This document shows positions 18,476-34,701 of a stretch of 64,000 nucleotides of DNA, in pieces; position 1 is the stretch's first letter; each line of letters starts with the position of its first letter. The DNA is taken from contig JAURQH010000010.1 in assembly GCA_030836185.1 (NCBI GenBank), positions 1-64,000 on the forward strand. Reading direction: 5' to 3'. This DNA is from Planctomycetota bacterium. GTDB lineage: Bacteria; Planctomycetota; Planctomycetia; Planctomycetales; Planctomycetaceae. Made by a program: the position numbers and the translations under genes. The notes below the pieces were generated by a model that had not been told where the DNA came from, did no database searches, and saw only the letters and a program-made list of their open reading frames with translations.

Positions 18476-18493
18476 GAGACTCAGGATCTATTT

Positions 18494-19702
18494 ATGTCTG
18501 AAATTAAAACATTTCGAGCTGCGTCTTTAGAAGCCGCAATGGAACTTGTACGACAAGACCTCGGTGAAGAGGCGGTGATTCTTCAAAGTCGCGAAGTCGC
18601 ACAAAATCGTTTGTTGACTTGGCTCAAAGCCAAAACAGAAATTGAAGTGACTGCTGGCATCGGCTCTCGCTGGGAACGTGCTGCTATCGACTTCTCGAAT
18701 TCTGCCGGTCTCGATCTGGAATCATTGAACGAGGAGCCTTTGAACTCATCAGAGGAACAAAATGAGCCTGCTCTTGAAAGTATAGAGAGCGAAGATAAGA
18801 CACAAGAGCCCACACGACTTTCGGCACTCGAAGAACGGTTAAACTCCATTCAGTCGATGCTCGAGCAAATGGGCCAACAGCAAATTGTCAGTTCTTCCGT
18901 CGATGTTCCTGTCGAACTTTTTGACTTGTATGCGGAATTGATTGATGTCGATCTGGATGAAAGCCTGGCTCGCGATTTGATCTATCGTTTGCGGCAGGAA
19001 GCGGGAGCATTAATTTCTGAACAACCCGACCGAGCTCGCCACCTATTGACTGGCATGGTTGAACGGGAACTCAATTGTAGTGGGCCGATCCAGGTTGTTG
19101 CTCAACAACAAAAAGTGGTGGCTCTGGTCGGTCCCACCGGTGTTGGAAAAACGACCACCATCGCCAAGCTTGCCGCGAATTTTCGCCTTCGTGATGGAAT
19201 AAAGATGGGTCTTGTGACCGTTGATACTTATCGTATCGCTGCTGTCGAGCAACTTAGGACTTACGCAGAAATTATCGATCTGCCGATGAAAATTGTGACA
19301 AGTCCACAAGAAATGCAACAAGCGATGGACGAACTCTCTGATATGGATCTGGTGCTGATTGATACAGCAGGACGTAGCCCGAAAGACGAACTCAAGATCA
19401 AAGAACTGAAACAACTCCTCGCAGCGGCCAATGTTGATGAAGTTCACCTGGTGATGAGTCTCACAGCAAGTATGAAAAGTCTTCTCTCAACTGCTCGAAA
19501 CTTTGCGAGAGCCGATGTGACTTCACTCATTCTGACCAAGCTCGATGAAGCAGATAGTTTGGGGGCTGTTCTCTCACTGAATCGAGAACTCAACCTTCCA
19601 GTTAGCTATCTGACGACGGGACAAAATGTACCCGATGATATTGAACCTGCCCTTTATGACCGTCTGGCCCGACTGATTCTTGGTCGAGATGTTTTGCACT
19701 AA
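18494..19702 (+). CDS. flhF: Flagellar SRP-type GTPase FlhF
   Basis: FlhF is the third SRP-type GTPase and sets the place and number of flagella. Its N-terminal B domain begins IKTFRAASLEAAMELVRQ followed by DLGEEAVIL, as usual. An acidic, low-complexity linker follows (about 75-120). The NG domain has G1 VALVGPTGVGKTTT, the DTYRIAAVEQLR motif, G3 LIDTAGRSP and G4 LTKLDEAD. At 402 residues its length is normal. It starts 18 bases after flhA, and flhG follows 46 bases later, so the three are very likely one transcript. Confidence 0.96.
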   Translation: MSEIKTFRAASLEAAMELVRQDLGEEAVILQSREVAQNRLLTWLKAKTEIEVTAGIGSRWERAAIDFSNSAGLDLESLNEEPLNSSEEQNEPALESIESEDKTQEPTRLSALEERLNSIQSMLEQMGQQQIVSSSVDVPVELFDLYAELIDVDLDESLARDLIYRLRQEAGALISEQPDRARHLLTGMVERELNCSGPIQVVAQQQKVVALVGPTGVGKTTTIAKLAANFRLRDGIKMGLVTVDTYRIAAVEQLRTYAEIIDLPMKIVTSPQEMQQAMDELSDMDLVLIDTAGRSPKDELKIKELKQLLAAANVDEVHLVMSLTASMKSLLSTARNFARADVTSLILTKLDEADSLGAVLSLNRELNLPVSYLTTGQNVPDDIEPALYDRLARLILGRDVLH

Positions 19703-19748
19703 ATCAATTTTTTATAACCATATTTCTTCTTGAAACCGGTAATTCAAA

Positions 19749-20624
19749 ATGGCCGATCAGGCACAAACCCTCCGAACACTGATGGAACAACGGCGTTCGA
19801 CTTCCGATTTACAAATCGATGGCGAACAATCTCCGTTGGCAAAAACCTTGGGAGTGACAAGTGCCAAGGGAGGCGTGGGGAAAACGACGTTGGCGATTCA
19901 ATCCGCAAGGGCTTTTGCCAATGCTGGCTACAAAGTCTGCGTATGGGACGTGAACGGAAACGCCTCTCACGATTTGCTCTCTGGCTTTCAGCATTCATGG
20001 ACTCTCTCACATCTGTTGACGGGTGCCCGCAGTGCCGAGGAAATTTTGACACCGGGTCCTGATGGAATCCATTTTTTGTTGGGGAATGGTGTCAGTAATC
20101 TGACAACGGCACTCTGGGGGCAGTCTCAAGTGCTTCAGTCTGCCATCAATACCTGGCAGAAAAATTTTGATGTTCTGGTTCTCGACCTTCCGGGAACAGT
20201 CGGCGGGGAAGTTCAGTCATTGATCTCAAGCTGTGATTCCTCCTGGCTTGTTTGTACATCAGAACCAACCGCAGTCGCGGCCACTTATGGATTTATTAAG
20301 CAATCACCCGATTTATTGTCCCGAACGTCAATCATGGTGAATCAAGTCGATTCTTCTGAAGAAGCATTCGATGTGATTGATCGCCTGCAACAAACCACAA
20401 AATTGTTTCTGCAGAGTTCGATTTCTGCGGCCGGGTTCGTGCCGCAAGATCGTTCCCTGAATCAGTCAGAGCATTGGAGATTTTCCGAGTCCGTGCAGTC
20501 AACCGTTGATGGATTGACGAGTCGCTGGCTGTTGAACTTCGATGCTTCAGATGAGGAGAGCAGTTTTGTGGATCGCTTTGGATGTCTGGCAACATCCCAC
20601 TGGAAAGAGGCACGAGCTGCATAG
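19749..20624 (+). CDS. flhG: FlhG/FleN-like MinD-family ATPase, divergent active site
   Basis: FlhG limits flagellar number and stimulates the FlhF GTPase through an N-terminal DQAxxLR motif. This protein begins MADQAQTLRTL, an exact match, so I start at this ATG. The deviant Walker A is present (SAKGGVGKTT, K40-T47). The usual DADLGxAN switch I site reads WDVNGNASHDLL (D67 kept, the rest changed), and switch II reads LDLPGTVGGEV. I see no clear C-terminal amphipathic membrane helix. It is 291 residues long and sits between flhF and fliA, which supports the name. Nucleotide hydrolysis may differ from standard FlhG. Confidence 0.82.
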   Translation: MADQAQTLRTLMEQRRSTSDLQIDGEQSPLAKTLGVTSAKGGVGKTTLAIQSARAFANAGYKVCVWDVNGNASHDLLSGFQHSWTLSHLLTGARSAEEILTPGPDGIHFLLGNGVSNLTTALWGQSQVLQSAINTWQKNFDVLVLDLPGTVGGEVQSLISSCDSSWLVCTSEPTAVAATYGFIKQSPDLLSRTSIMVNQVDSSEEAFDVIDRLQQTTKLFLQSSISAAGFVPQDRSLNQSEHWRFSESVQSTVDGLTSRWLLNFDASDEESSFVDRFGCLATSHWKEARAA

Positions 20625-20880
20625 ATTTGGTGGAGTGCGTAAATTGAGGTGAGTTTTATGATTGAAAAGAAATTTAGGATTATGCGGATTTTATTCAATT
20701 TGATGGTTGTAACGACCGATAGTAAAGACAGGCCGTCAATGCGTCTTCTCTGAAACGTATTTTTGGCAGTGAATCTCTTCAGGGGATTCGCGACAACACC
20801 TCGCACCGAAGCGTTCGATTTCGGTCGCAATACAAATCACAACGATCGACAGACAAACTATACAACCGACGGAGAGTTCC

Positions 20881-21657
20881 ATGGCAACGAAGGTCGATGA
20901 CGCCACATTACAGCTTTGGACAATATTCAAACAGGATCAAACTGATCAGGGTTTACGCAATCGCCTGATTGAAAAATATTTGCCATTGGTTCGTTATAAC
21001 GCCGAGCGTGTGTGGGCTAAATTACCCGATGGCGTTGATATGAACGACTTGATGTCGGCCGGTGTGTTTGGATTGATGGATGCCATTGAAGCATTCGATC
21101 TCGAACGCGGCGTGAAATTTGAAACCTATTGTGTGCCACGTATTCGTGGAGCAATGCTTGACGAGCTAAGAACGATGGACTGGGTTCCACGACTTGTTCG
21201 TAGTAAAGCCAGCAAATTGGAAGCGGCTCGAAAGCAAGCCGAAGCCGAAGCGGGGGGACCACCAAGCGACGCAGCAGTCGCTCAGAAACTCGAACTTCCT
21301 CTCGAAGAATACGAAAAGCTGAAGAACGATGCGAACGCAGTCGGTGTCGTCAGCCTGAATAAGAAATGGTATCAAACCGACAGTTACAAGGATGTCCGGG
21401 AGATTGATATTCTCCAGGATGCCAAAGGGGAAGACCCGACAACCAGCATCCAAAAACTTGACATCATGAAGCTAGTGACCAAAGGGCTCAACCGAAACGA
21501 ACGGCTCATCATCATTCTTTATTACTACGAAGAATTGACGATGAAGGAAATCGGTACCACGCTCGGTCTTTCTGAATCGCGTGTCAGCCAAATGCACTCC
21601 AGCATTGTCTGCCGATTGAAAGAACAACTCGGCATGCGTCGCCCGGAATTTGATTGA
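20881..21657 (+). CDS. fliA: RNA polymerase sigma factor FliA (sigma-28)
   Basis: FliA directs late flagellar and motility promoters. The protein has 258 residues. Region 2 (LVRYNAERVWAKLPDGVDMN and DLMSAGVFGLMDAIEAFD) and the YCVPRIRGAMLDELRTMDWV segment are typical of FliA/WhiG. Region 3 (PSDAAVAQKLEL) and region 4 (LTMKEIGTTLGLSESRVSQMH) follow. GGAGAG at 20871-20876 is the ribosome site. About 256 bases separate it from flhG, enough for its own promoter. A strong bidirectional terminator stands 16 bases past the stop. Confidence 0.96.
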   Translation: MATKVDDATLQLWTIFKQDQTDQGLRNRLIEKYLPLVRYNAERVWAKLPDGVDMNDLMSAGVFGLMDAIEAFDLERGVKFETYCVPRIRGAMLDELRTMDWVPRLVRSKASKLEAARKQAEAEAGGPPSDAAVAQKLELPLEEYEKLKNDANAVGVVSLNKKWYQTDSYKDVREIDILQDAKGEDPTTSIQKLDIMKLVTKGLNRNERLIIILYYYEELTMKEIGTTLGLSESRVSQMHSSIVCRLKEQLGMRRPEFD

Positions 21658-21673
21658 TGGTGTCGCGTTACAA

Positions 21674-21716
21674 CCAATAAAAAAACACTCCGTATTATGG
21701 AGTGTTTTTTTATTGG
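21674..21716. terminator. Bidirectional terminator, 18-base perfect stem
   Basis: CCAATAAAAAAACACTCC (21674-21691) and its exact reverse complement (21699-21716) flank a seven-base loop. The A-run and T-run make it work in both directions, ending fliA on the plus strand and the convergent membrane protein gene on the minus strand. The stop codon of the minus-strand gene (21710-21712) lies inside the stem. Confidence 0.93.
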
Positions 21717-23011
21717 TTCTGGCCGTTGTTCTCGAAAAAACGATGATTTGGCTGAGTTGGTAACAGAAATCGTTGGCGCAATTCTTCCAACTCAGCTTGT
21801 GCGGTAAATTGTTCTGCTTGGCGATCTGTGGGTGACATCAAGTTTCGTTGCTCGACAACGACACTCAGGTCACTCCAACAGTTGTATTTTTCGCACAACG
21901 CCCACGCGACGGCGACTTCCAGCCGAGGTTCTGGGTTCAAGGGGACATGAAGCTGACTGATCGACCAGCGATCAGAGACAAACACTAACGGTCCCGCATC
22001 TCCTTCAATCCAGCGATAGGGATCGCTTGTAAATGGTGGGAAATCCTCCGAAATCTGTGTGGGAGGTTTCGCCAAGAGAACTCGAACCACCACTGCTCGT
22101 GGACTGTAGAGAGACCATCCAAGCCATTGGTCAAGATGTCCCGTGAGTCGGAGCAGAGGAAAACTCCAGAGAAAGAGGCCAACACAAATAAGAGCGTAAT
22201 CAAACCGGCGTTGAGAAGACTTGGAAGTCTCATTCTTTTTTAGAACGACTTGTTTTGGTAAGCACCACAGCCAGAAGGCTTGCAGCAGAAAAAAGCTGTT
22301 CCACAACATGACACTCCACTCGTGATTCAATCCGCGCGAACTGAATGTGAGAATCAGGAGGCCGTGCATGAGCATGGCCAGGCATGCCGCCAGACGACGT
22401 GTTCGTGGGATAAGCAACCCGACCGCGATGAAACACTCCCCCATAGGAAATGTGGCGATCATGACACGCTGAATCGTTTCGGGAAAACGATTCAGCTCGA
22501 GACTGAGTGAACGGAACAGCCCCGAGAGAATCACCTGTCCATGTTGTTCGAGAAACATCAAATTGGCTTTGGAGATCGCAGAATAGACATAGAGGCTGGT
22601 GGTTAAAATGATGACCAACGTCAATGTTCTGCGGGGTGGACCGATCAAAATTAAAAGCGAGATCCATATATATTGGATCATCCAGGGTTGCCAGCGGTGC
22701 TGATCTTCCAGCAATAAACTACCCGCAGCGAGCAGAAAGAGCAGAGAAAACCTCTTCGAGGGATCACCTCGTAGCGAATCCATCAATTGGCCCAAAAGTC
22801 CCAGAACCATGAGGCCCATCAGTATCCAAGCCACAGTGTTGGGCCAGACAAACCCAGATATCAAAGGGACTTGCGGAAATACTGACTGAGGCAGCCAGAG
22901 TTTGAACGAGGTGCCAATTTGAGCCAGTGCGAACAGAGCCACAAGAAATTGTAAGCCGCATAACTGTCGTAATTGGTCAGGATCTGCTGGCTGGTCGGCT
23001 TTGTTTGTCAC
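21710..23011 (-). CDS. Multi-pass membrane protein, DoxX/HTTM-like
   Basis: The protein has about ten hydrophobic segments across residues 10-290, then a soluble region of roughly 140 residues. I start at GTG 23011 (VTNKADQPADP); a TTG at 23041 in the same frame would add ten residues. A helix with SLYVYSAISKANLMFL and the following PMGECFIAVGLLIP resemble DoxX/MauE or HTTM-type membrane proteins, but the match is weak and I give no function. The C-terminal part contains PRLEVAVAWALCEKYN. Its 3' end shares a terminator with fliA. Confidence 0.75.
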   Translation of the reverse strand: MTNKADQPADPDQLRQLCGLQFLVALFALAQIGTSFKLWLPQSVFPQVPLISGFVWPNTVAWILMGLMVLGLLGQLMDSLRGDPSKRFSLLFLLAAGSLLLEDQHRWQPWMIQYIWISLLILIGPPRRTLTLVIILTTSLYVYSAISKANLMFLEQHGQVILSGLFRSLSLELNRFPETIQRVMIATFPMGECFIAVGLLIPRTRRLAACLAMLMHGLLILTFSSRGLNHEWSVMLWNSFFLLQAFWLWCLPKQVVLKKNETSKSSQRRFDYALICVGLFLWSFPLLRLTGHLDQWLGWSLYSPRAVVVRVLLAKPPTQISEDFPPFTSDPYRWIEGDAGPLVFVSDRWSISQLHVPLNPEPRLEVAVAWALCEKYNCWSDLSVVVEQRNLMSPTDRQAEQFTAQAELEELRQRFLLPTQPNHRFFENNGQNQ

Positions 23012-23135
23012 TTCTGGACACCCTGTCAGAAAATTCGTCAAATTGCGAGACGGAGTCGTTTGTGATTTTTTCCCGCAAGATCTACACTAGAGGTTCGCAG
23101 AAACTTTCACAGATTCGATTTTCGGAAACAGAACC

Positions 23136-23255
23136 ATGGTCCTACGTCCTCGAACAAAACTGAAAAAAGCCCGCAAAAATGCCCGTTGTCCCAAATGTGG
23201 AAAACTGGTTGCGATGAAAAGACGCTGTAAAACTTGTCACAAAGCCTTACGCTAG
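23136..23255 (+). CDS. 39-residue basic zinc-ribbon protein
   Basis: The ATG at 23136 opens a 39-codon frame ending at TAG 23253-23255. The product starts MVLRPRTKLKKARKNARC and carries CPKCGK and CKTCHK, a four-cysteine zinc ribbon with a 13-residue spacing, in a very basic chain (about 16 Lys/Arg). It resembles the small zinc-ribbon ribosomal proteins bL32 and bL36 in style but is neither. The frame stands alone between a divergent gene upstream and a clear terminator downstream, so it is an isolated transcript. A nucleic-acid-binding role is an inference from charge and fold type. Confidence 0.75.
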   Translation: MVLRPRTKLKKARKNARCPKCGKLVAMKRRCKTCHKALR

Positions 23256-23283
23256 TTTTTGGCAGAGCAGCAGCAATAAAAAC

Positions 23284-23310
23284 AGCCCGACGAGTATTCG
23301 CCGGGCTTTT
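23284..23310 (+). terminator. Intrinsic terminator after the zinc-ribbon gene
   Basis: AGCCCGACGA and TCGCCGGGCT form a ten-base stem with one G-U pair and a GTAT loop, followed by TTTT-rich DNA. It lies 28 bases after the stop and may also serve the convergent gene ending at 23334. Confidence 0.85.
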
Positions 23311-23333
23311 GCTTGCGCGATCAAAAAGAACTA

Positions 23334-23888
23334 TCACTGCTCAAATGGTTTCTCGGACGATTTATCGGCTCCAAACGATTTACGGAAACTCTCGACTTCT
23401 GATTCAATCGTTTTCTTTCCACCGGTCAATTTCAGGAAATAGTTTCCTTCTTCACCCACATTGATGATGGCAGCCAACATCCGCGAGTTGGGTGTTTTTT
23501 CCGTTTGTTGTCGAATTGGTGGACCAACGGGTTTGTTATAAGTTCCCGAAACATCGACAAGGACATATTCGCCTGCTTTGGATTTCCCTTCAGTCACATT
23601 GACTTCTCGGCCTTCTGCTTCAAACTGCTTCACCCATCGGCTGATGTTCGCAGCCACTCCTCCTCCGCCTCCGCCAAACGAATAGACCACGATTTCTGCA
23701 TCGGTCTCTCCCTCAGCCGGCTTGATTTTGAATTCCGCCAGTCGTAGCCGATTGCTTGCCGGTTGTTGTTCCCAGCTTTTGGGGACATCCAAAGTGATTG
23801 CTTTAATTTTGACATCTTCGGCTGACAACACTCCAGCGACTGCGAGTGCCGTCAGGCAAGTCAGCATCGAGATTGTTTTACGGAACAT
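23334..23888 (-). CDS. Secreted hypothetical protein
   Basis: This 184-residue protein has a signal peptide (MFRKTISMLTCLTALAVAGVLSA). The mature part begins with IKAITLDVPKSWEQ, as in proteins whose first strand reads 'this value for the reference model' in DUF1795-like folds, but I cannot assign a family. A run of glycines (SFGGGGGGVAANI) is followed by RWVKQFEAEG and later by GPPIRQQ and YFLKLTGGKKTI. I believe similar proteins occur in other planctomycetes. It converges on the small zinc-ribbon gene. Confidence 0.78.
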   Translation of the reverse strand: MFRKTISMLTCLTALAVAGVLSAEDVKIKAITLDVPKSWEQQPASNRLRLAEFKIKPAEGETDAEIVVYSFGGGGGGVAANISRWVKQFEAEGREVNVTEGKSKAGEYVLVDVSGTYNKPVGPPIRQQTEKTPNSRMLAAIINVGEEGNYFLKLTGGKKTIESEVESFRKSFGADKSSEKPFEQ

Positions 23889-24003
23889 AATAAAGACTCC
23901 TTTCAGGGAGAAAATTGTTGAATTCTTATTACCATTGTTGAGAGGCCGGAACAGTTTTGCAAATCTGTCAGAAGTTTAAGAGCGGGTCTGCCATCTTAAT
24001 TGC

Positions 24004-25713
24004 TTATTTCAGCAGTTTTTTGAATTGTGTCCAACTTCGGGAATTGGCAATATCGTTGGCGGATAGCCCAGCGCGGCGGGCTTGAAAGACTCCATATCGC
24101 ATGACATCCATGCCACTGGTTGAATGCGCATCTGTGCTGATAACAATCGGGATACCAAGATCTTTCGCGGCAGCCGCATGCTGGGCATGCAAATCGAGCC
24201 GACTTGGATGGGCATTGATTTCCATCATGACCTCATGGTCGGCGGCGGCTTTGAGGATTTCGGACATCTCCATCTCGGCCCCCGGACGCTTCCCAATAAT
24301 TCGTCCCGTGGGGTGTCCAATGATATCGACATTGGGATTCTTGATGGCCGTCATCAATCGTTTGTGAATTTGCTGTTTGTCTTGCTTCAACCCATAGTGC
24401 AAAACAGCCAGTACCCAATCGGCTTCTTCCAGAACATCATCAGGGAGGTCCAAAGTTGCATCTTCAAGGATGTCGCATTCGATGCCGCATAAGACCTGAA
24501 TCCCTTTGGTTTTCTCGGCGACTTCGCGAATCTCGTTCCAATGGGTGCGAAGTCGGTCTGCGTCGAGTCCGTTGGCCATCGTGACTCGTTTTGAGTGATC
24601 GGTGATTGCAATATATTTTCGGCCACGTTTTTTTGCCGCATCAATCATTTCTTCGATGGTGGCCGTGCCGTCTGTCGCGGTTGTGTGCATATGCAAGTCA
24701 CCTCGAATATCGTCGAGCGTGACAAGTTCAGGAAGCCTATTATTTTCAGCAAGTTCAAATTCTCCCCGATCTTCGCGTAACTCGGGAGGAACCCATGCCA
24801 AGCCGAGGGCCTCGTAGACTTCTTCCTCGGTTTCCCCCGCAACGGATTCTTCTCCTGAAAACAGGCCGTACTCATTCAATTCGAGGTTTTGTTTTTGTGC
24901 CCGTTTCCGCATCACGATGTTGTGTTCTTTAGAACCAGTAAAATATTGCATTGCGGCTCCGTACGACTTCGCCGGAACGACGCGCAAATCCATTTCGAGA
25001 CCTTTAATGAGTCGAACGCGTTGTTTAGTCTCTCCACGTTGTAACACCTCTTCGACGAGGTCATGGTTGGCTAGTGCGTCCATCACTTCATCGACATCAT
25101 CGGAAGTGACGAGAATATCGAGATCGCCGACAGTTTCTTTGCGTCTGCGGAAACTTCCCGCAGGTGTCACCTGTTGGGTAGAAGCTAACGCGGCGAGAGT
25201 TTCCACAATTTGTTCGACCAGCGGTTCTGCCGTTGCAAAGAAGGTTCGTTCTTTAGATTTTGCGGCTTGATCAATATTGGCCAGAATCGAGTCTTCCGTT
25301 TTCTTTGCGAAGCCTTTCAAATTTTGAATTTCTCCCGCTTGAGCGGCGGCCTTCAACTCATCGAGATTGGTGATGTTTAATTCTTTGAACAGAGTGGCCG
25401 CTTTTTTGGGGCCGACACCGGGAAGACGCATGATATCGAGGACACCGGGGGGGACTTCGGCTTTGAGTTCTTCCAGTTGTTCGAGAGTTCCCGATTCAAC
25501 CAGTTCAGCGATTTTCGCAGCCAGGTCTTTTCCGATTCCTGACAACTCTGTCAGGTCGGTACCCTCTTCAAGCAGTGAAGAGACCGAGTCGGTTATGCCT
25601 TCCAAAGTTCGGGAAGCGTTGCGGTAAGCTCGGATACGAAACGGGTTGGCACCTTGGATCTCCAGGAGATCGGCAAGTTCATCAAATTGTGAGGCGATCC
25701 GTTCGTTATTCAT
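24004..25713 (-). CDS. polX: PolX-type DNA polymerase / 3'-5' exonuclease
   Basis: Bacterial PolX fills short gaps in base excision repair and trims 3' ends. The 569-residue protein has helix-hairpin-helix motifs ([24 protein letters not shown]), a family X nucleotidyltransferase domain with the metal pair in VGDLDILV (about residues 196-203), and a C-terminal PHP exonuclease domain from about residue 335 ([36 protein letters not shown]). All PHP metal ligands I can identify are present. It is transcribed alone; the upstream 290 bases lead to a divergent lipoprotein gene. Confidence 0.95.
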
Positions 25714-25870
25714 ATGTCATTCTCTTCCGCATGTTGGTTTCGTTTTTCACCTTTTGGGTCTTGGCCTCATCATAAAGAATCACGATTCGTTCTCCATGCT
25801 ATCCAAATTCGCTCCATACAATGATTTGGTAGTTTCGGTGTTTTGAGGATGAGAGGCTTCACTGTTAGTC

Positions 25871-25899
25871 TTGACAGATTATTGTCAAAAATCTATCAC
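25871..25899 (+). promoter_or_regulatory. Candidate promoter with overlapping palindrome
   Basis: TTGACA (25871-25876) is followed after 17 bases by TATCAC (25894-25899), a fair sigma-70-type pair upstream of the lipoprotein gene at 26004. The -35 box is the left arm of an inverted repeat TTGACA-N6-TGTCAA (25871-25888), which could be an operator. This is pattern matching only. Confidence 0.35.
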
Positions 25900-26003
25900 T
25901 CAGGTCCTCCCTAAAGATCAAGTTCGATCTTTTCCCCACCCGTAGAGACATTCCGTCTGAACCCCGATTTTCCAATACATTAATTATAATTTCAGGTGTT
26001 CTC

Positions 26004-26723
26004 ATGAGAGATCTTCTGTTATGTCTACTCGTCTGCACATTTGCATGCACGGGTTGCACCTCCACGAACACATCCAATACGGCACGAACTGCGACAGAGC
26101 AATTGCTCATTTCGAATGCCATTGACGATTCCCTCTCGAATGTCGATTTTGGTGCCTTCGCGGGACATAGCGTCTTCCTTGAAGAGAAATATATGGAATC
26201 GGTTGACAAAAATTACACCATAGGATCGATTCGCCATCGCTTGATGATGCAAGGGGTCACGATTGTCGACAAGAAAGAAGAGTCTGATATCTGTCTGGAA
26301 GTTCGCAGTGGTGGTGTCGGAACAGATTCTTCCAAAATGTTTTTGGGAATTCCAGAAGTGGCCATTCCGGGAATGGTGACGCTTCCCGAATTGCGAGTCG
26401 TGACAAAAGAGAGTCAGAACGCTGCCGCTAAACTGGGAATCGTTGCTTATCACACTAAGTCGGGTCAAATTTTGGGTGATGGTGGAGTATCGTTGTCCCA
26501 GTCTGATCGAAACAACTGGTATGTGTTGGGGGTCGGCCCATACGAAAATGGAACTCTCAAAAAAGAAATCGCGGACTCAGCACAACAGGCCTCATACACA
26601 CCAAATGTCAAAATCCCGAAACAGGTTGCATTTCAACCGTCCTATTCTTCGGGAGCAGGTGGAGTTTACAACGATAGCACAGGGCGAATTCGTCTCGCTG
26701 GAGAAGAAAAACCGCAACACTAG
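26004..26723 (+). CDS. Lipoprotein, DUF6655-like
   Basis: This 239-residue protein has a short export signal ending in a Cys-rich segment (LLVCTFACTGCTS), consistent with lipid attachment although the lipobox is not classical. The motif NTARTATEQLLISNAID and the following FGAFAGHSVFLEEKY resemble a planctomycete lipoprotein family that I recall as DUF6655. The middle part (RHRLMMQGVTIVDKKEESDI) suggests a secretin- or DUF4136-like alpha/beta fold. The C-terminal 50 residues look disordered. Its function is unknown. An LRR lipoprotein gene follows 127 bases later. Confidence 0.78.
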   Translation: MRDLLLCLLVCTFACTGCTSTNTSNTARTATEQLLISNAIDDSLSNVDFGAFAGHSVFLEEKYMESVDKNYTIGSIRHRLMMQGVTIVDKKEESDICLEVRSGGVGTDSSKMFLGIPEVAIPGMVTLPELRVVTKESQNAAAKLGIVAYHTKSGQILGDGGVSLSQSDRNNWYVLGVGPYENGTLKKEIADSAQQASYTPNVKIPKQVAFQPSYSSGAGGVYNDSTGRIRLAGEEKPQH

Positions 26724-26850
26724 ACGCCGATTTGAATATTCAATTCAGGCCGTCAATTGCCAATCTGCTTCAGGGCCATTATTCTGCATGAACAGGAAAT
26801 GAGCGACGTGCTCATTTCAACAATACTGTTTCAGCATGTAGATAAATTCC

Positions 26851-28164
26851 ATGAATCGACTGCTCTTTCTTGTCTGTGCAATTTGTTCTTTGCTCTTCAC
26901 GGGGTGCCCCCAGTCGTCGGCACCAGATTCTTCAAGTTCAACGAATTCGAAACAGCCAGCGGAGTCTACTGAAGAACCGCGACTCGAAGATTCTGCTGAG
27001 TCAATTGACGCTCTCAAAGAATTGAATGTCCGTCTTATCGCTGATGATGAGGGATACATCACAAAAATGTATGCTCTTGATTATCCCATCGGCGATGACG
27101 ATTTGGTTCATCTCGAAGGCCTAGCCAACCTTGTTGATTTAAGATTGTCTGGTCCAGAAATTTCTGATGCAGGAATGAAGCTGGTTGGTAAACTCACATC
27201 ACTGAATATCTTGGGATTAGACAACACAAACCTGACAGGAGAAGGACTCAAGGAGCTTTCCAATCTTAGCAATCTGAAAGCTATCTATCTTCGGCGAACG
27301 AACATTACCGGCGAAGATTTGCAGCATCTTCAACCGTTAACCTCACTTAAAGAAGCCGACATTCGTTTTACGGGAGTCGATGATACCGGGGCCCAATATC
27401 TGGCAACGATGCATCATCTGAGGAGTGTGAAAATTCAAGGCACCTCAGCCTCACCTGATTTCATCAAGCAGCTTGCCCCCATCAAAGATTTGGAGCGAAT
27501 CAATGTCTGGGGCCCTTCATTTAACGATGCTGTTTTGGAAGCCGCTCATCAGTTTCCCAAGTTAAAAGCGATTGAACTGGATGATACTCAAGTGACTGAC
27601 GAGGGATTAAAAATTTTAGCCGATCTGAAAAATCTTGAATTCATCAGTCTCATGCGAGTGAACGGTATTAGTGATGAAGGGATGAAGTCGTTGGCCGGGT
27701 TGGAAAAACTAAAAACATTGAATCTTCGCGGTACTCCTGTTGGTGACTCAGGCTTGGTGACTCTTTCCAAGTTGCCTGTGATTGTAGAACTGAATCTCTT
27801 CGAGAACTTTCTCGGTGAGGAAGGACTTGCAGCAGTTGGTCAACTGACCACATTGGAGAATCTCAATCTCCGGCAAACTCCCACCGATGACACCAATATC
27901 GCAGGATTGGTTGGTTTAAGTCATCTCAAGTCGCTTGATTTGGAAGATTCATTCATTACTGATGAGGCGATCAATACCATCGTCAACCTCACCGATTTAG
28001 AGGTTCTCATCCTTAATGGGACTGGTGTGACGGACGCGGGTCTCTTGAAACTGACTGCGTTGAAATCATTGAAAGAACTTCGATTGCGTTATGTGGGCCC
28101 CTCTGAAGAAACATTGGAAGCTTTGAAAGCTGCGATTCCCAATCTTAAAGTTGTGACCGATTGA
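26851..28164 (+). CDS. Leucine-rich-repeat lipoprotein
   Basis: The signal peptide (MNRLLFLVCAICSLLFTGC) ends in a lipidation Cys. A Ser/Thr/Glu-rich spacer (about 20-48) is followed by roughly 14 repeats of 23-24 residues of the form L..L..L.L..T.ITD.GL..L, for example LDDTQVTDEGLKILADL and LNGTGVTDAGLLKLTAL. These repeats form a curved solenoid used for protein binding at the cell surface or in the periplasm. The partner is unknown. The protein has 437 residues and the repeats run nearly to the end. It converges on a PfkB kinase gene with a 12-base gap. Confidence 0.9.
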   Translation: MNRLLFLVCAICSLLFTGCPQSSAPDSSSSTNSKQPAESTEEPRLEDSAESIDALKELNVRLIADDEGYITKMYALDYPIGDDDLVHLEGLANLVDLRLSGPEISDAGMKLVGKLTSLNILGLDNTNLTGEGLKELSNLSNLKAIYLRRTNITGEDLQHLQPLTSLKEADIRFTGVDDTGAQYLATMHHLRSVKIQGTSASPDFIKQLAPIKDLERINVWGPSFNDAVLEAAHQFPKLKAIELDDTQVTDEGLKILADLKNLEFISLMRVNGISDEGMKSLAGLEKLKTLNLRGTPVGDSGLVTLSKLPVIVELNLFENFLGEEGLAAVGQLTTLENLNLRQTPTDDTNIAGLVGLSHLKSLDLEDSFITDEAINTIVNLTDLEVLILNGTGVTDAGLLKLTALKSLKELRLRYVGPSEETLEALKAAIPNLKVVTD

Positions 28165-28176
28165 TCATCTTTCAAG

Positions 28177-29079
28177 CTACCGACTTGAAGCAATCAATTG
28201 TTCGATTTGTACTAGCGTCGGTAGAGCCTCGCGATTGCCCTGTTGCTGGCACTTGAGAGCGGCCGCGGCCGAAGCGAATTCAAGGATTTGCTCGGGAGCC
28301 CATGCTTGCAAAACTGCGTGAATCAACGCTCCCGAGAAGATATCGCCCGCGCCTGTGGAATCTGTGTTGACTACTGAGAAGGCGGGTTGGTAATGCGTTT
28401 CCTCTTGAGTGAATAACCAAGCTCCCTGATTGCCGTCTGTGATGGTGACCGTTTTGGGGCCCGCTTCCAGTAATCGTTTTGCTCCTCGTTCGATATCATC
28501 GTTTTGGAAATACTGAGTCAGAAATCGACGCGGTGCGTTCACCACATCCACAAATTGTAAGAGATCCGTGGTACGACCTTTGGGAGACCCTGTGTCGAGG
28601 AACACCGTGAGACCTTTCGCTTTGGCTGATTGTGCAACTGTGACGGCTATTTCAGCAGGCCATCCATCGAGATGGAGAACACCCGCTTGCGAGAGATGTG
28701 TGGCGAGTTCTTGAAGTGGCTCGATATCTGCCGAGGTTCGTCTGCACACAATAGTGCGGCTTCCCGTCGACTGCTCCACCCAAACGTGGGCGGTTCCCGT
28801 TTCGGTTCCTGGTTGTTGCGATGCTGGAAAGAAATTTACTTGTTCTCGATCGAGATCTTCTTCAATGATGACTCCAAAGTGATCGTCTCCCCATAAGCCA
28901 GTAAACGTGCAGTCGTGCCCAAGTCGAGAAAGAAATACGAGAGCCGTAGGGACTGGCCCTCCGACCTGTAAGCGTGATTCATTAGCTTCAATTTTAGTGT
29001 CGACGACCGGGAATTGATCGACGAATAATTGGTGATCAACGACAATCGTTCCCAATCCGAAAATTTTCTGACTTGCCAT
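28177..29079 (-). CDS. PfkB-family carbohydrate kinase
   Basis: This 300-residue ribokinase-like protein has the N-terminal GGPVPTALVFLSRLG motif and the C-terminal ATP-site signature NTDSTGAGDIFSGAL with the catalytic Asp in GAGD. The phosphate-loop region VTITDGNQGAWLF is also typical. The family phosphorylates sugars or nucleosides such as ribose, fructose, ketodeoxygluconate or adenosine, and the substrate cannot be told from the sequence. The MMPL transporter gene lies directly upstream on the same strand (29 bases), so the two may be co-transcribed. Confidence 0.9.
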   Translation of the reverse strand: MASQKIFGLGTIVVDHQLFVDQFPVVDTKIEANESRLQVGGPVPTALVFLSRLGHDCTFTGLWGDDHFGVIIEEDLDREQVNFFPASQQPGTETGTAHVWVEQSTGSRTIVCRRTSADIEPLQELATHLSQAGVLHLDGWPAEIAVTVAQSAKAKGLTVFLDTGSPKGRTTDLLQFVDVVNAPRRFLTQYFQNDDIERGAKRLLEAGPKTVTITDGNQGAWLFTQEETHYQPAFSVVNTDSTGAGDIFSGALIHAVLQAWAPEQILEFASAAAALKCQQQGNREALPTLVQIEQLIASSR

Positions 29080-29108
29080 AGAGTACTCTCAGATCTCTTA
29101 GCAGAAGC

Positions 29109-31748
29109 CTAAGTGTTCGAAGAGGCTGGCACTGATTCATTTGGTTCAGAATGCGGAGCCCCGAGAAATCTTCCCAGCGGACCAAAATACCCTCGATACA
29201 ACATGACCAACCAGGCCGGTACGAGAATTGGTCTCACGATAAACGTATCGATGAGCACTCCAAATGCCAGAGCAAATCCCAATTGTTGCATGCCAAGAAG
29301 CGTGCCGAATAGAAGCGACGAGAATGTTCCCGCCATGATCACTCCACAACTGGAGATAATGCTGCCCGTTTTTTGCAAGGCTTGTAATGCGCCTTGGACG
29401 AGGCCATGTTCCTTCTGTTCCTCTTCAATTCGTGTCATCAACAGGATGTTGTAGTCTTCTCCAACTGCAATCAGAATTGTGAACAGAAACACGGGAACTT
29501 TCCAATCGAGCCCGGCGAACCCCGCAGGATCCAAGCTGTAAAACATCAACGCAGCAGCCCCTAATGAGACAAAGAAGGTGAAAAACACACTCATCAGTAA
29601 GTAGAAGGAGATCATGACACGTCGTAATAGTATGACCAGAATGAGAAAGACGGCTGTCAGTACCAAAACTTCGATTCTGATTTGATCGCGATCAGTGACG
29701 GCTTTCAGGTCGGCAATGCTGGCCGTTGGTCCGAGAAACGAAAGTTCGGTCGGTAGGATTGTATGACTTTGAACGTCTTTCAGAGCCTCTTGAAGTTCAG
29801 CGACTTCATCGTTCTCTAATCCTGGCTCTGCAAGCTCTTCCTGGAGAGCTTCAATTTCTTCTTCGTGAAGCTCTTTAATTGCGGTGTCAAACTCTGCCGC
29901 ATACTGTTCCATCCGCTTTCGGAAGAGATTGAAGTTGGCGATACTATCTCTCGAAAAAGGATCGCTGGTAAAGACCAAGTCGAGTCGAGTGATGCTGTGG
30001 TCAAGTTCGTCGACTTGCGTGACATAGTATTCGCGAATTTTCTGATTGATGACTCGTCGTTCGATCAAACCCAGATCTTTTTCAAGTTCTTGCTCGTACT
30101 TAATCGCTCGGCTGGTAATGCCTGTGGGATCGTTCACAGAGCGAATGTCTGACACGTCCAACTCTTCGAGGTTCTTTTTGATTTTTTCGGTCAACAATTC
30201 AAGCTGGCCGATGACATCCGATTCGGTGAAATCAAGCGAAGGATTACGCAAGAGGACTTGAGCAGGCCCCGTCTCGCCGGGGGGGAAATGTTGTTGAGCC
30301 GCACGTGCCCCTTGAACGCTCAAATAATGATCGGGCAATTCTGAGAGCAGACCGTAGCTAAGTTGATCGATAAATACCGTGCCGAAAAAAGCGAACGGCA
30401 GCATGAGGCTCACGGTGATGATCCAGATTTTGGCCGGTGCTCTTTCAATCCGTTGGCAAATGCTGACCCAGAATCGATTAATGACATCACCTTTCATGAG
30501 ACGTCCCAACAGCGTCGTTGGAGAAAACCAACTCGCGCGTTGTACGGAGTCATTGGGTAAGTAAGGCCAGAATGCCCATTTTCCACAGAGTCGGATCATC
30601 GCCGGGGCAAATGTCAGAGAAGTGACCAGACAGATCATGAGTGCAATGAAGATCGCGTTGCCGGCTTGCTGAAATTTTCCGAATTCCGCAAACGACATCA
30701 TGCCGATACCAATAGCCGAAGTTCCCGCACTGGCAGCCAGCGCGGCTCCCACTTTTCCAATAGAGGCAGATGTGGCTTCGGGGTGAGTCGCTCCCTGATC
30801 GAGTTCTTCTTTATAGCGGGCAATTAAAAAGAGGCAGTAGTCAACCCCCGCACCATAAACCAGCACTTTGATGAAGACTTCAATATCTTTAAACAGGCTT
30901 ACGATCCCGAAACTTGCCAAATTTGACAAGACCAACATCGATGTGGCCACAGCGACTCCAACGGTCATCAATGGGATGATGGCCAGTAGTGGGGCGCGAT
31001 AGATCAGAATTAGCAGAACAAGAACAAGAATAATCGTGGCTGATTCCGTCCGTTCACCACTTTCTCTACTGGCGTTTCGCATATCACGACCGACAGTCGC
31101 CGTGCCACTGAGCGATAATTCCATGCCAGCGGGAATTCTGAGTTCTTCGTCGGGATTAACCTTTAAGTTCTCGCGAAGTTGTTCAATTTTCCAAATCAGC
31201 GGAATGTTCACATCGGCGATGTACTCGGTCGTCAATGAGATGATTAGTAACGTCGCTTCTCCGTGTTTAGAATTGAGTAGATGACCAATTCGTGGGTGTG
31301 TCCAATCGCGAACGCGATAAACCAGATCTGATTCTTCTTCCGTCAGCTTCAGGTGTTGAAACTGCTTAGCGTATTTTTCCGCTTTTAGATCGGCCGCTTC
31401 ATCCGGTTCATCTTCGGAGGCCGTTGATCGGACTCCAATCGAGCGCAGCAAGGGGACAAGTGTATCATGAATGTAATTACGATCATCTTGATTGATGCCT
31501 GATTTTCGAGCAGGTCGACGCGCCACAATGACGACGGTACTCGTTAGCAAGTCGTCGGGAAACGCCTTCTCAAAAAGCGCTTCTGCCTCAACACTGTCGG
31601 AATCGTTGGGGAGAAAGGCGAATTCACCTTCCTTCAACATACTCTCAAACGGGGGGGTAATTGCGAATAAGACCGCAAGCAGCAGCACCCAGCCAAACAG
31701 GACCAGCCCCCAGAAACGAGAGACAAATTGTCCCAGTTTTTCAAACAT
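29109..31748 (-). CDS. MMPL/RND-family transporter
   Basis: This 879-residue inner-membrane protein has the RND pattern: one N-terminal helix, a periplasmic domain, six helices (about residues 230-420), a second periplasmic domain with a charged coiled-coil-like stretch rich in Glu (about 620-660), and five or six C-terminal helices. Diagnostic segments are GAGVDYCLFLIARYKEEL and AVGEDYNILLMTRIEEEQ, which carry the helix-4 and helix-10 acidic residues of MMPL pumps. Such proteins export lipids or hopanoids or work as efflux pumps. No adaptor or outer-membrane partner lies next to it. The cargo is not known. Confidence 0.9.
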   Translation of the reverse strand: MFEKLGQFVSRFWGLVLFGWVLLLAVLFAITPPFESMLKEGEFAFLPNDSDSVEAEALFEKAFPDDLLTSTVVIVARRPARKSGINQDDRNYIHDTLVPLLRSIGVRSTASEDEPDEAADLKAEKYAKQFQHLKLTEEESDLVYRVRDWTHPRIGHLLNSKHGEATLLIISLTTEYIADVNIPLIWKIEQLRENLKVNPDEELRIPAGMELSLSGTATVGRDMRNASRESGERTESATIILVLVLLILIYRAPLLAIIPLMTVGVAVATSMLVLSNLASFGIVSLFKDIEVFIKVLVYGAGVDYCLFLIARYKEELDQGATHPEATSASIGKVGAALAASAGTSAIGIGMMSFAEFGKFQQAGNAIFIALMICLVTSLTFAPAMIRLCGKWAFWPYLPNDSVQRASWFSPTTLLGRLMKGDVINRFWVSICQRIERAPAKIWIITVSLMLPFAFFGTVFIDQLSYGLLSELPDHYLSVQGARAAQQHFPPGETGPAQVLLRNPSLDFTESDVIGQLELLTEKIKKNLEELDVSDIRSVNDPTGITSRAIKYEQELEKDLGLIERRVINQKIREYYVTQVDELDHSITRLDLVFTSDPFSRDSIANFNLFRKRMEQYAAEFDTAIKELHEEEIEALQEELAEPGLENDEVAELQEALKDVQSHTILPTELSFLGPTASIADLKAVTDRDQIRIEVLVLTAVFLILVILLRRVMISFYLLMSVFFTFFVSLGAAALMFYSLDPAGFAGLDWKVPVFLFTILIAVGEDYNILLMTRIEEEQKEHGLVQGALQALQKTGSIISSCGVIMAGTFSSLLFGTLLGMQQLGFALAFGVLIDTFIVRPILVPAWLVMLYRGYFGPLGRFLGAPHSEPNESVPASSNT

Positions 31749-31949: not shown

Positions 31950-32250
31950 ATGACTGGCCCAACTATTGGTGAAATTATGCCAGAATCCCTGAAATTACTG
32001 ATTCAAGCCGGTCATCCGATTATTTCGATTCAGTCGACAGATGAATCCCGCGTTTTGGGTCTGGTTCATGAAACCTCCCGAGAATTGAGTCGGTCGATTA
32101 TGGAATGGTCGATGACGCAGGGACTTGTTCCGTTTGACGGGCAAGGAATTCGTCGCTCACCGGTCGTTCAACCTTCTTCCGCGACCGAAGCCTTGGCCCA
32201 TGTTCAGGATTGTATCGGTTCTTTTGTCTTCATTTTCCGCGATCTGGGTG
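31950..32250 (+). pseudogene. 5' fragment of a Ycf46-like AAA ATPase gene
   Basis: From the ATG at 31950 about 100 codons resemble the N-terminal domain of Ycf46-type AAA ATPases: LKLLIQAGHPIISIQSTDE, then MEWSMTQGLVPF and SFVFIFRDLG. In the complete proteins this is followed by several hundred residues with the AAA core. Here the likeness stops at FRDLG (about 32249) and the frame continues through 20 unrelated basic residues to a stop at 32315. The break coincides within a few bases with the broken end of a phage portal fragment on the other strand. The most likely explanation is a deletion that removed the rest of both genes. Confidence 0.68.
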
Positions 32251-32251
32251 T

Positions 32252-32704
32252 TCATGGAAACAGACGCAAAAAACATTCGCCATCACGCCATGTGCGTCGG
32301 GCAAACTCACCGTAAGAAAAATGACGCTGGTTGTGGCTTAAGAACTGATGCCACACTTCGTTGGCGGTCTTGGCCAGCAGTGCTGAACTGGTATCTTGTG
32401 TGTCGAGCGAATGATGGGCAAGCTTGAGTCCTGGGCCGACAACATAAATTTCCAGCAGCCGTAAAATGTTACGAGCATGGGGATGATTCTGAGACAATTG
32501 ACGAGCGGCTGCCCGGACATCTTTGCGAGTTTGTTCGGAGGGCCCGGAAGTTTGGTCACCCAGCAACAACCAGCGTCCCGGATCTTCCTGGACCGGCTGA
32601 GGCGATTGCTCTTCGACCATTTGCAGGACTTGTTCCTGCATGATGCGGCGGTAACGCGCTTCCAGTCGAGCCGTCCGCCACTTGTCTTTCAAAATCTCCA
32701 GCAT
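32252..32704 (-). pseudogene. 5' fragment of a phage portal protein gene
   Basis: The 150-residue product resembles the N-terminal part of lambda-type phage portal proteins: RKDVRAAARQLSQNHPHARN, then LLEIYVVGPGLKLAHHS and GEFARRTWRDGECFLRLFP. Complete portals have about 450-550 residues, so two thirds are missing. The ribosome site GGGAG is still placed 7-11 bases before the ATG at 32704. No terminase, capsid or other phage gene is seen on either side. The fragment ends at the same point where the AAA ATPase fragment ends, which suggests one deletion joined a prophage to the AAA gene. Confidence 0.72.
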
Positions 32705-33099: not shown

Positions 33100-34617
33100 T
33101 CATTCCACAAACAGAAACGGCAGGACTTCGATTTTCATTACCATGAAGGCAAAGTATCCAAAGAACGCACATGACCAGATGATGGCCACAAAGCGCAGAG
33201 GACTCATCGACAACGAGCGCGAGAGAATCTTGTTATTCATCCAGAGCAACAAGATCGAATAGACAAACATCACGCCCCCCTGTAGCGCTGCCGAGATCTT
33301 CACGAGAAACAGAGGTTTCGAAAATCCGGGGACTAGCAAGATGATAATTCCCAACGCAATCTCGGCCCACAAAAAGAGAAAGTACAATTTGCTGACCGAC
33401 CATTTGGGGTTATCGCGCAGGTAGTTCACTTTCACGATGTCTGCGGAAATCCGGGAGATCACATCGAGGACTCCCAGTTCGGTGGTGAGCAAGATGGCGG
33501 TTCCCATCAATAGAAATGCAATCTTGAGGATCCCCCCATTCTCCATGCCGCCAAGAGTGGTTGCTTCTCCCCAGATGAAATCCATATCTTTCCCGAAGCT
33601 CTCCATGCCGGGCTTCAAGTTTCCATCCGCGTTATAAAAAATCGAATAGGAAATCAGTGAGAGTAGGGCGAGACAAACCAGACAGGTTACAAAGAAACTG
33701 AGGAAGTGTTCGATGTTGGCGGCTCGCCACCATTGTTTCCAGCGACCGAGATTGGCTTCGGTGTGCTTGAAGTGATAACCGACTTCGGGGCTCGCTTCTT
33801 CTTGGCCGGTGATGGGGCTCGTAATCCGTCCGATGTAGGCTCCCATGCCGTAGCCTTTGTCTTTGATGTAATTCGATTGCCCGAGGTTTAAGGTTCCTCC
33901 CGCTCCGGCAAATGCTAAAGCCCCCAATAATGCGACGAACGCCAACCCCGAATCGGGAGGCGGCATCTCTCCCAGGTTCATTGCTCCTGCAAACATCGCA
34001 GTGACTGCGTAGGGCTTTACCAGAATGAACGCCAACACCACCACGGCAATCATGATCGAGGCGACTAAAAATGTCTGAATCTTTTCGACGGTGTTATAGA
34101 CGACGGGACCGGATGTCAGAACGACACCGACAAGTACCAGCCCGGCGATGGCAAACCAGTTCGTGTAGGGAGCCGAGAAATCACCACCGGCGGCATCGAT
34201 CGGTCCGAAGATCAACCAGGAAAGTGTTGTCGCCGCACCACTCGCCCAGCCGGGCCAAGCCATCGGAACAATATTGCAGATCAGCATGATCCAGGCCCAA
34301 TGCTTGCTCATGCGGCAGAAGCCGGTGATCGCGCTTTCGCCCGTGACGAGTGTGTAGCGTTCAATTTCCATGTTGAGGAAATATTGCGTCATCACACCCA
34401 GCAGGCAGGCCCAGAAGAAAACGAATCCCGCTTTATAGGTAATGTGGGGCCAGAGCATGAATTCGCCCGAGCCGAGCGAGAGACCGGCAAGGATAATACT
34501 GGGGCCAATCATGGCCTTCCAGGGGATGGCCTTCGGCATGTCTCGATATTCGAGAGGAGGCAAGTTTTGGTGTGGGATGACATCATCGGGAACGAGTTCC
34601 GGGTCTTTGTCAGACAT
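33100..34617 (-). CDS. Nramp-related membrane transporter
   Basis: I start at the ATG at 34617 (MSDKDPELVPDD), as the longer frame adds an unlikely 23-residue extension. The 505-residue protein has about 11-12 membrane helices. The first helix, GPSIILAGLSLGSGEFMLWP, aligns with Nramp helix 1, but the metal-binding DPGN motif is replaced by GSGE. Helix 6 (LGALAFAGAGGTLNLGQSNY) lacks the usual MPH. It belongs to the Nramp-related branch without the standard metal ligands, so a divalent metal substrate should not be assumed. The neighbours are the phage remnant downstream and a hairpin region upstream. Confidence 0.8.
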   Translation of the reverse strand: MSDKDPELVPDDVIPHQNLPPLEYRDMPKAIPWKAMIGPSIILAGLSLGSGEFMLWPHITYKAGFVFFWACLLGVMTQYFLNMEIERYTLVTGESAITGFCRMSKHWAWIMLICNIVPMAWPGWASGAATTLSWLIFGPIDAAGGDFSAPYTNWFAIAGLVLVGVVLTSGPVVYNTVEKIQTFLVASIMIAVVVLAFILVKPYAVTAMFAGAMNLGEMPPPDSGLAFVALLGALAFAGAGGTLNLGQSNYIKDKGYGMGAYIGRITSPITGQEEASPEVGYHFKHTEANLGRWKQWWRAANIEHFLSFFVTCLVCLALLSLISYSIFYNADGNLKPGMESFGKDMDFIWGEATTLGGMENGGILKIAFLLMGTAILLTTELGVLDVISRISADIVKVNYLRDNPKWSVSKLYFLFLWAEIALGIIILLVPGFSKPLFLVKISAALQGGVMFVYSILLLWMNNKILSRSLSMSPLRFVAIIWSCAFFGYFAFMVMKIEVLPFLFVE

Positions 34618-34701
34618 CGGGAGACTTTCGTTCGAGAGGTGAGCGGCTGGGAAGACGAGACATAAAAAACGCGCGGCAGGTAGCACAACCGATCCTGTGG
34701 C

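Follow-up and report, generated by a model that had tools for sequence, protein, structure and literature searches.

The gene transfer agents (GTAs) of alphaproteobacteria are described as mostly inherited vertically and encoded at several loci; a number of lineages have lost or pseudogenised them, possibly with a part played by cheaters (PMC10883770). The phage-derived element considered here, from the planctomycete family Planctomycetaceae, resembles RcGTA as portrayed there: it has a head-tail cluster, genes at more than one locus, mostly vertical inheritance and repeated pseudogenisation or loss (PMC10883770). It differs from RcGTA in host group and in its lambda-family portal, and carries extra ABC, GNAT and ParB-like genes as well as glycosyltransferases. 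Both have a very short tape measure, of 236 amino acids (aa) in the planctomycete element. Against PDB sequences at E<=1, the capsid profile found no phage match and only a ribosomal protein, the large terminase (TerL) found nothing in a set that may or may not hold the RcGTA TerL, and the portal found one chain named 'Portal protein' (8gtd, E 3e-4) in a set that may lack the RcGTA portal.

Two further kinds of system invite comparison. Prophage remnants and cryptic prophages also retain truncated phage structural genes after deletion; unlike them, the source here was a conserved single-copy element, as opposed to an insertion confined to one lineage, and its packaging module is kept at another locus. 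Phages with lambda-family portals share the Phage_portal_2 family. In a scan of 50,697 phage records, which rests on short exact patterns and can miss relatives, 36 records distantly matched the portal (22.6-24.2% identity among the eight matches listed), whereas neither the capsid nor TerL had a match. Among the titles and abstract openings listed by searches of the open-access PMC literature, there was no description of such an element; the one planctomycete item in the available part of PMC7947584 is a prophage TerL from Zavarzinella formosa.

Two truncated genes and their junction

The window, our term for the whole stretch analysed, comprises 64,000 nucleotides of a Planctomycetaceae genome (G000; contig JAURQH010000010.1). 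A preliminary description reported a truncated AAA ATPase gene, which it labelled Ycf46-like, and a truncated phage portal gene in it, and both are real. The portal open reading frame (ORF; 32252-32704, minus strand, 150 aa) matches Phage_portal_2 in Pfam (E 1e-9) and portal families in PHROG (E 7.5e-9), and aligns at 79% identity with residues 1-149 of the portal (461 aa) of G001, whose genus is that of the window genome. The AAA ORF (31950-32315, plus strand, 121 aa) has no Pfam match of its own and is identified through a full-length G001 protein, to whose N-terminal part its residues 9-105 are 74% identical. That protein is listed as 517 aa from a GTG, or about 496 aa when counted from the start lying opposite the window's ATG (31977) in the alignment. 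It carries a Pfam AAA domain (PF00004) at residues 290-419 (E 5e-32); in NCBIfam its matches to PAN, Cdc48, FtsH and others all fall far below cut-off. The window keeps 149 of 461 portal codons, in agreement with the earlier statement that the 3' two thirds are missing, and about 95 of 517 AAA codons. For the AAA gene that statement fell short: about four fifths is missing, and the whole ATPase domain is gone with it.

The endings do meet within a few bases, as had been described. Homology to the portal of G002, a second species of the genus, starts at 32255, and from 32261 the two sequences are identical in register at 252 of 300 positions. On the other side, AAA homology with G001 ends at about 32260, or at 32267 in a gapped blastn alignment. 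Residues 101-121 of the AAA ORF read the portal gene in antisense and match the G002 portal region at 95%. The short overlap is consistent with microhomology (Table 1); we infer its exact extent from related genomes. Between 31700 and 33200 we found three inverted pairs and no direct repeats of at least 12 nt, and the window holds no tRNA or Rfam anchor.

Table 1. Features at the junction and in its conserved flanks (window coordinates)
Feature	Position	Strand	Basis or remark
MMPL-family gene, conserved host flank, AAA side	29109-31748	-	Pfam; present in G001 and G002
AAA ATPase gene, 5' fragment of about 95 codons, ATPase domain lost	31977-32260	+	Similarity to G001
Deletion junction	32255-32260		About 6 nt (TGGAAA) fitting both sides, a few more if gapped
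Lambda-family phage portal gene, 5' fragment of 149 of 461 codons	32255-32704	-	Pfam, PHROG, G001
Tail of the AAA open frame, reading portal antisense	32261-32315	+	Match to G002 portal region
Transporter-like gene, conserved host flank, portal side	33100-34656	-	Present in G001 and G002; no Pfam match

We take the transporter-like gene to be Nramp-like, and the names TatD, TadA, PfkB, RNase III and sulfotransferase for flanking genes, like the Atp names used below, are likewise our assumptions.

The intact locus and a second deletion

In G001 the genes that flank the junction in the window lie on both sides of an intact locus, in the order transporter, portal, cluster, AAA, MMPL. Its portal and AAA genes are both complete and converge across 14.7 kb (17050 to 31733) occupied by a head-tail cluster. 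Given an intact relative with the same flanks, the window junction was made by deletion; taking about 14.7 kb as the deleted length assumes an ancestor with the spacing of G001. We also considered the fragments as functional genes with their present ends. This was rejected, the intact relative having 461 and 517 codons and the G002 portal ending elsewhere.

The cluster genes of G001 were named by Pfam, PHROG or position. The cluster starts with the portal (Phage_portal_2), a 145-aa gene, a weakly matched maturation protease and a cement protein just under cut-off, and continues with the capsid (PF25209, E 5e-19), small genes to which no function is assigned, connectors (one weak, one at E 1.7e-7) and a tail terminator (E 1e-4). 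Tail tube and tape measure (E 2e-9) follow, then a 150-aa distal tail-like protein called by its position only, and the hub. By fold, the predicted hub structure (mean pLDDT 70) matches phage Mu gp44, T4 gp27, VgrG and the hubs of contractile injection systems (best E 1.3e-16). For the tail tube, the predicted structure (mean pLDDT 71.5) gave weak matches to tail-tube and related proteins (best E 1.9e-3, with none at E<=0.001); a GTA neck chain, 6toa, is among the weak matches (E 0.021). Beyond the hub come a 357-aa gene without a match, presumably DUF115-like, two glycosyltransferases and the convergent AAA gene. The hub protein (L028:6233-7813) has a long Thr/Ser-rich C-terminal tail, which may be glycosylated; the glycosyltransferase genes come next. 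No integrase or replication gene was found by Pfam among the 18 cluster ORFs of G001, nor an integrase by PHROGs among 16 of them besides the portal. Foreign base composition was set aside as evidence, since the GC difference in G001 (54.6% in the cluster, 52.3-52.6% in the flanks) is not informative. Membership of the AAA gene in the phage element was not supported either: in those genomes outside the window genus in which both turned up, its homologues sit on a different contig or a long way from the portal.

The second species has lost the same region in its own way. On a 4,258-base contig of G002 the same flanking genes enclose a portal match that extends up to codon 298, and the AAA gene is absent. 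Since the end points differ from those of the window on both sides, there were at least two deletion events; judged from the end points alone, it is possible that the two genomes first shared a smaller deletion. Neither capsid nor hub has a match in G000 or G002, both of them draft assemblies (G000 comprising 107 contigs and 98% complete), and relocation of the cluster within the window genome was rejected on this account. The interval between portal and transporter in G002 holds about 450 extra bases with two small ORFs (L029:2880-3560) that are absent from the window and from G001.

Both losses look recent from the constraint on the portal fragment. Across the 147 codons compared between G000 and G002 there are 44 synonymous and 12 non-synonymous changes (dN 0.035, dS 0.605, dN/dS 0.058). 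The portal dN/dS is thus higher than that of rpoB (0.020, with dS 0.589) or the transporter-like gene (0.025) and lower than that of TerL (0.070) or MMPL (0.072). Were all 12 replacements to postdate the losses, the unconstrained share of the path would still be at most about 6%, or about 10% with Poisson error.

Distribution, packaging genes and inheritance

A search of 170 genomes of the family with the G001 capsid (E<=1e-3) returned matches in 58. Forty-six genomes, from 29 of 58 genera, carry one copy each at 61% identity or more, some of them partial at contig ends; identity to G001, itself the query at 100%, ranges from 61 to 82%. Eleven genomes have matches of 28-34% only and G024 has a 23-residue remnant, so that 124 of the 170 are without a capsid copy at 60% or more. 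In G024 (C58:73675-76035) the hub gene is kept beside this remnant, another partial loss, and G044 has portal and TerL but neither capsid nor hub. Gene order within the cluster is maintained in many fetched genomes; in some (G091-G093, G016) only the head part is nearby, and G045, G104 and G177 gave no tail-tube or tape-measure match.

Beyond the family, the class holds the capsid in 111 of 397 genomes at E<=1e-15, once in 106 of them. Twenty regions chosen by capsid in other families matched protease models in every case and portal models in 16, in the same order, with no match to a tail gene model and one weak glycosyltransferase match. Because such an order is common to many phages, these regions may be prophages or the same element. 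The scan for relatives, pattern-based like that of the phage records, returned 32 loci assigned to Planctomycetaceae, Planctomycetota, Planctomyces, Planctomicrobium, Thalassoglobus neptunius, Alienimonas chondri and one 'bacterium'. Capsid loci in IMG/VR numbered two with a single-protein query and one with an alignment query. One IMG/VR contig, L065, carries the element from the ABC gene to the hub and may be a piece of bacterial chromosome.

The packaging module consists, in order, of HTH, ParB-like, ABC ATPase, GNAT, small terminase (TerS) and TerL genes. TerL lies above the PF03354 cut-off in G001 and just below it in G000. The PHROG TerL model matched 19 of 20 chosen genomes and also 11 of 14 controls; as it is unspecific, we identified orthologues by searching with the TerL of the window genome itself. 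TerL occurs at 45% identity or more in 50 of the 170 family genomes, made up of 43 of the 46 capsid genomes and seven without a capsid (G000, G002, G017, G044, G088, G113 and G174). The module sits directly upstream of the portal in 11 fetched genomes (G003, G008, G014, G019, G042, G078, G094, G116, G167, G168 and G177) and in L065, about 4 kb upstream in G023, and in rearranged form in G013. In the window genus it occupies a separate place, which in G000 and G002 is beside the atp operon; it is also separate in G005, G107, G109, G111 and G112, the last two giving no HTH or ParB match. Single-contig genomes show how far apart the parts can lie: portal and capsid map to 424 kb and 884 kb in G019, and to 58 kb and 181 kb in G043. 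Whether the modules are joined or split, of the 13 fetched loci with HTH, ParB and TerL, 11 have a ThiF-family gene adjoining HTH (L032, L034, L036, L040, L043, L147, L148, L149, L154, L171 and L176, the exceptions being L150 and L151), eight of the 11 lying outside the window genus; L074, which begins inside ParB, and L077, which is without TerL, were left out of this count. Neither the six packaging genes nor six flank frames of G003 include an integrase or replication gene.

Trees of 30 genomes (rpoB partial in G021, G091 and G107) indicate that inheritance of the element is mainly, if imperfectly, vertical. The capsid tree has 9 of 27 splits in common with rpoB (mean 0.17 and maximum 2 in 2000 shuffles) and the portal tree 11 of 27 (shuffle maximum 4). 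Mantel correlations with rpoB are 0.66 for capsid and 0.74 for portal, 0.56 and 0.61 with one genome per genus (24 genomes), and 0.41 and 0.46 without the divergent G008, and in each case no permutation out of 5000 reached the observed value. Some exchange is possible, since agreement with rpoB extends to only 9 (capsid) and 11 (portal) of 27 splits. The flanks of the structural module are common within genera g1, g15 and g23 and overlap little between the genera compared.

Origin of the junction and nature of the element

We consider the junction to be, probably, the deletion scar of a resident element of this kind, most likely one encoding a GTA-like particle. Speaking for this reading are the intact relative, the second deletion, recent constraint on the fragment and conserved gene order, together with the single copy, a tree congruence beyond chance and a packaging module that is still present. 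The deletion, about 14.7 kb long if G001 shows the ancestral spacing, would have come about through end joining or illegitimate recombination where the two sides had a few bases in common. Lost with it would be two thirds of the portal gene at its 3' end, all other genes of the head-tail cluster and about four fifths of the convergent AAA gene. The lost cluster would be the structural half of a phage-derived element that is single-copy and mainly vertically inherited in the family. Its packaging module (HTH, ParB-like, ABC ATPase, GNAT, TerS and TerL) and head-tail module (portal, protease, cement, capsid, connectors, tail tube, short tape measure, hub and glycosyltransferases) are predicted to act together in small tailed particles that package cell DNA and may transfer it.

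The preliminary description had explained the locus by a prophage that entered the AAA gene, or a site beside it, and was later largely deleted. Part of this stands, in that phage-type genes, now deleted from the window, do adjoin the AAA gene in G001, and the finding that most genera compared have different genes beside the structural module would also suit a temperate prophage entering the window lineage. The insertion itself is improbable: the AAA gene is uninterrupted in G001, no integrase was found in the cluster ORFs scanned, the direct repeats expected of attachment sites are lacking at the site, the capsid is single-copy at 61% or more in 29 genera, and the flanks are common within g1, g15 and g23. 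Slightly better placed, and still unlikely, is the idea that ordinary prophages of one lineage infect the family repeatedly, leaving the element undomesticated and the window a case of common prophage decay. Incomplete tree congruence, patchy presence in the family, weaker capsid homologues in other families that could be prophages, and the IMG/VR origin of L065 are all compatible with it. It sits poorly with a capsid present once per genome and 61-82% identical to that of G001, a near absence from viral collections, the ThiF neighbour in eight genomes outside the window genus, the splitting of the element over distant places in G019 and G043, and the low dN/dS of the portal fragment. Nor did the ORFs, site and collections examined yield the integrase, attachment sites or free relatives of an active temperate prophage. 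A false joining of two stretches at a short match during assembly is very improbable: although the genome is a draft of many contigs with only about 6 nt common at the join, both flanks are syntenic with G001, capsid and hub were found nowhere in the nearly complete assembly, and G002 lost the same cluster by a different deletion.

The deletion-scar reading extends to a broader proposal, which we regard as evenly balanced, that Planctomycetia has its own independently evolved and very old GTA made of two modules, one for packaging and anchored by ThiF, the other for head, tail and glycosylation, and that the window lineage has just lost particle-making in one of two sister losses, its packaging genes being only at the beginning of decay. 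The window would then fit the alphaproteobacterial picture of GTA loss and pseudogenisation (PMC10883770). Separate losses in two sister species would be in keeping with the rise and spread of non-producers. Should the element prove to be a GTA, bacteria known for large genomes and unusual cells would possess an old means of capsid-based gene exchange beyond the well-studied alphaproteobacterial agents, and comparing close species that have or lack the cluster could show directly why such systems persist or vanish.

Relatives of the window genome carry a head-tail set with a large terminase, in which the tail tube is recognised only by its fold and the distal tail protein only by where it lies; the window genome has lost the structural part. 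Long-term single-copy vertical inheritance is evident, with incomplete congruence. Purifying selection acts on the portal fragment and on TerL between G000 and G002; against it stands the TerS gene of G000. In the window genome the TerL, ABC, ParB and HTH frames of the retained packaging module are open, and TerS (C39, L147:8652-9737) is frameshifted, its start lying in one frame and its body in that of GNAT, whereas TerS and GNAT occupy separate frames in G001 and G002. This is either early decay or a sequencing error. Between G000 and G002, TerL dS is about twice that of rpoB (1.19 versus 0.59), which suggests exchange or faster change at the TerL locus.
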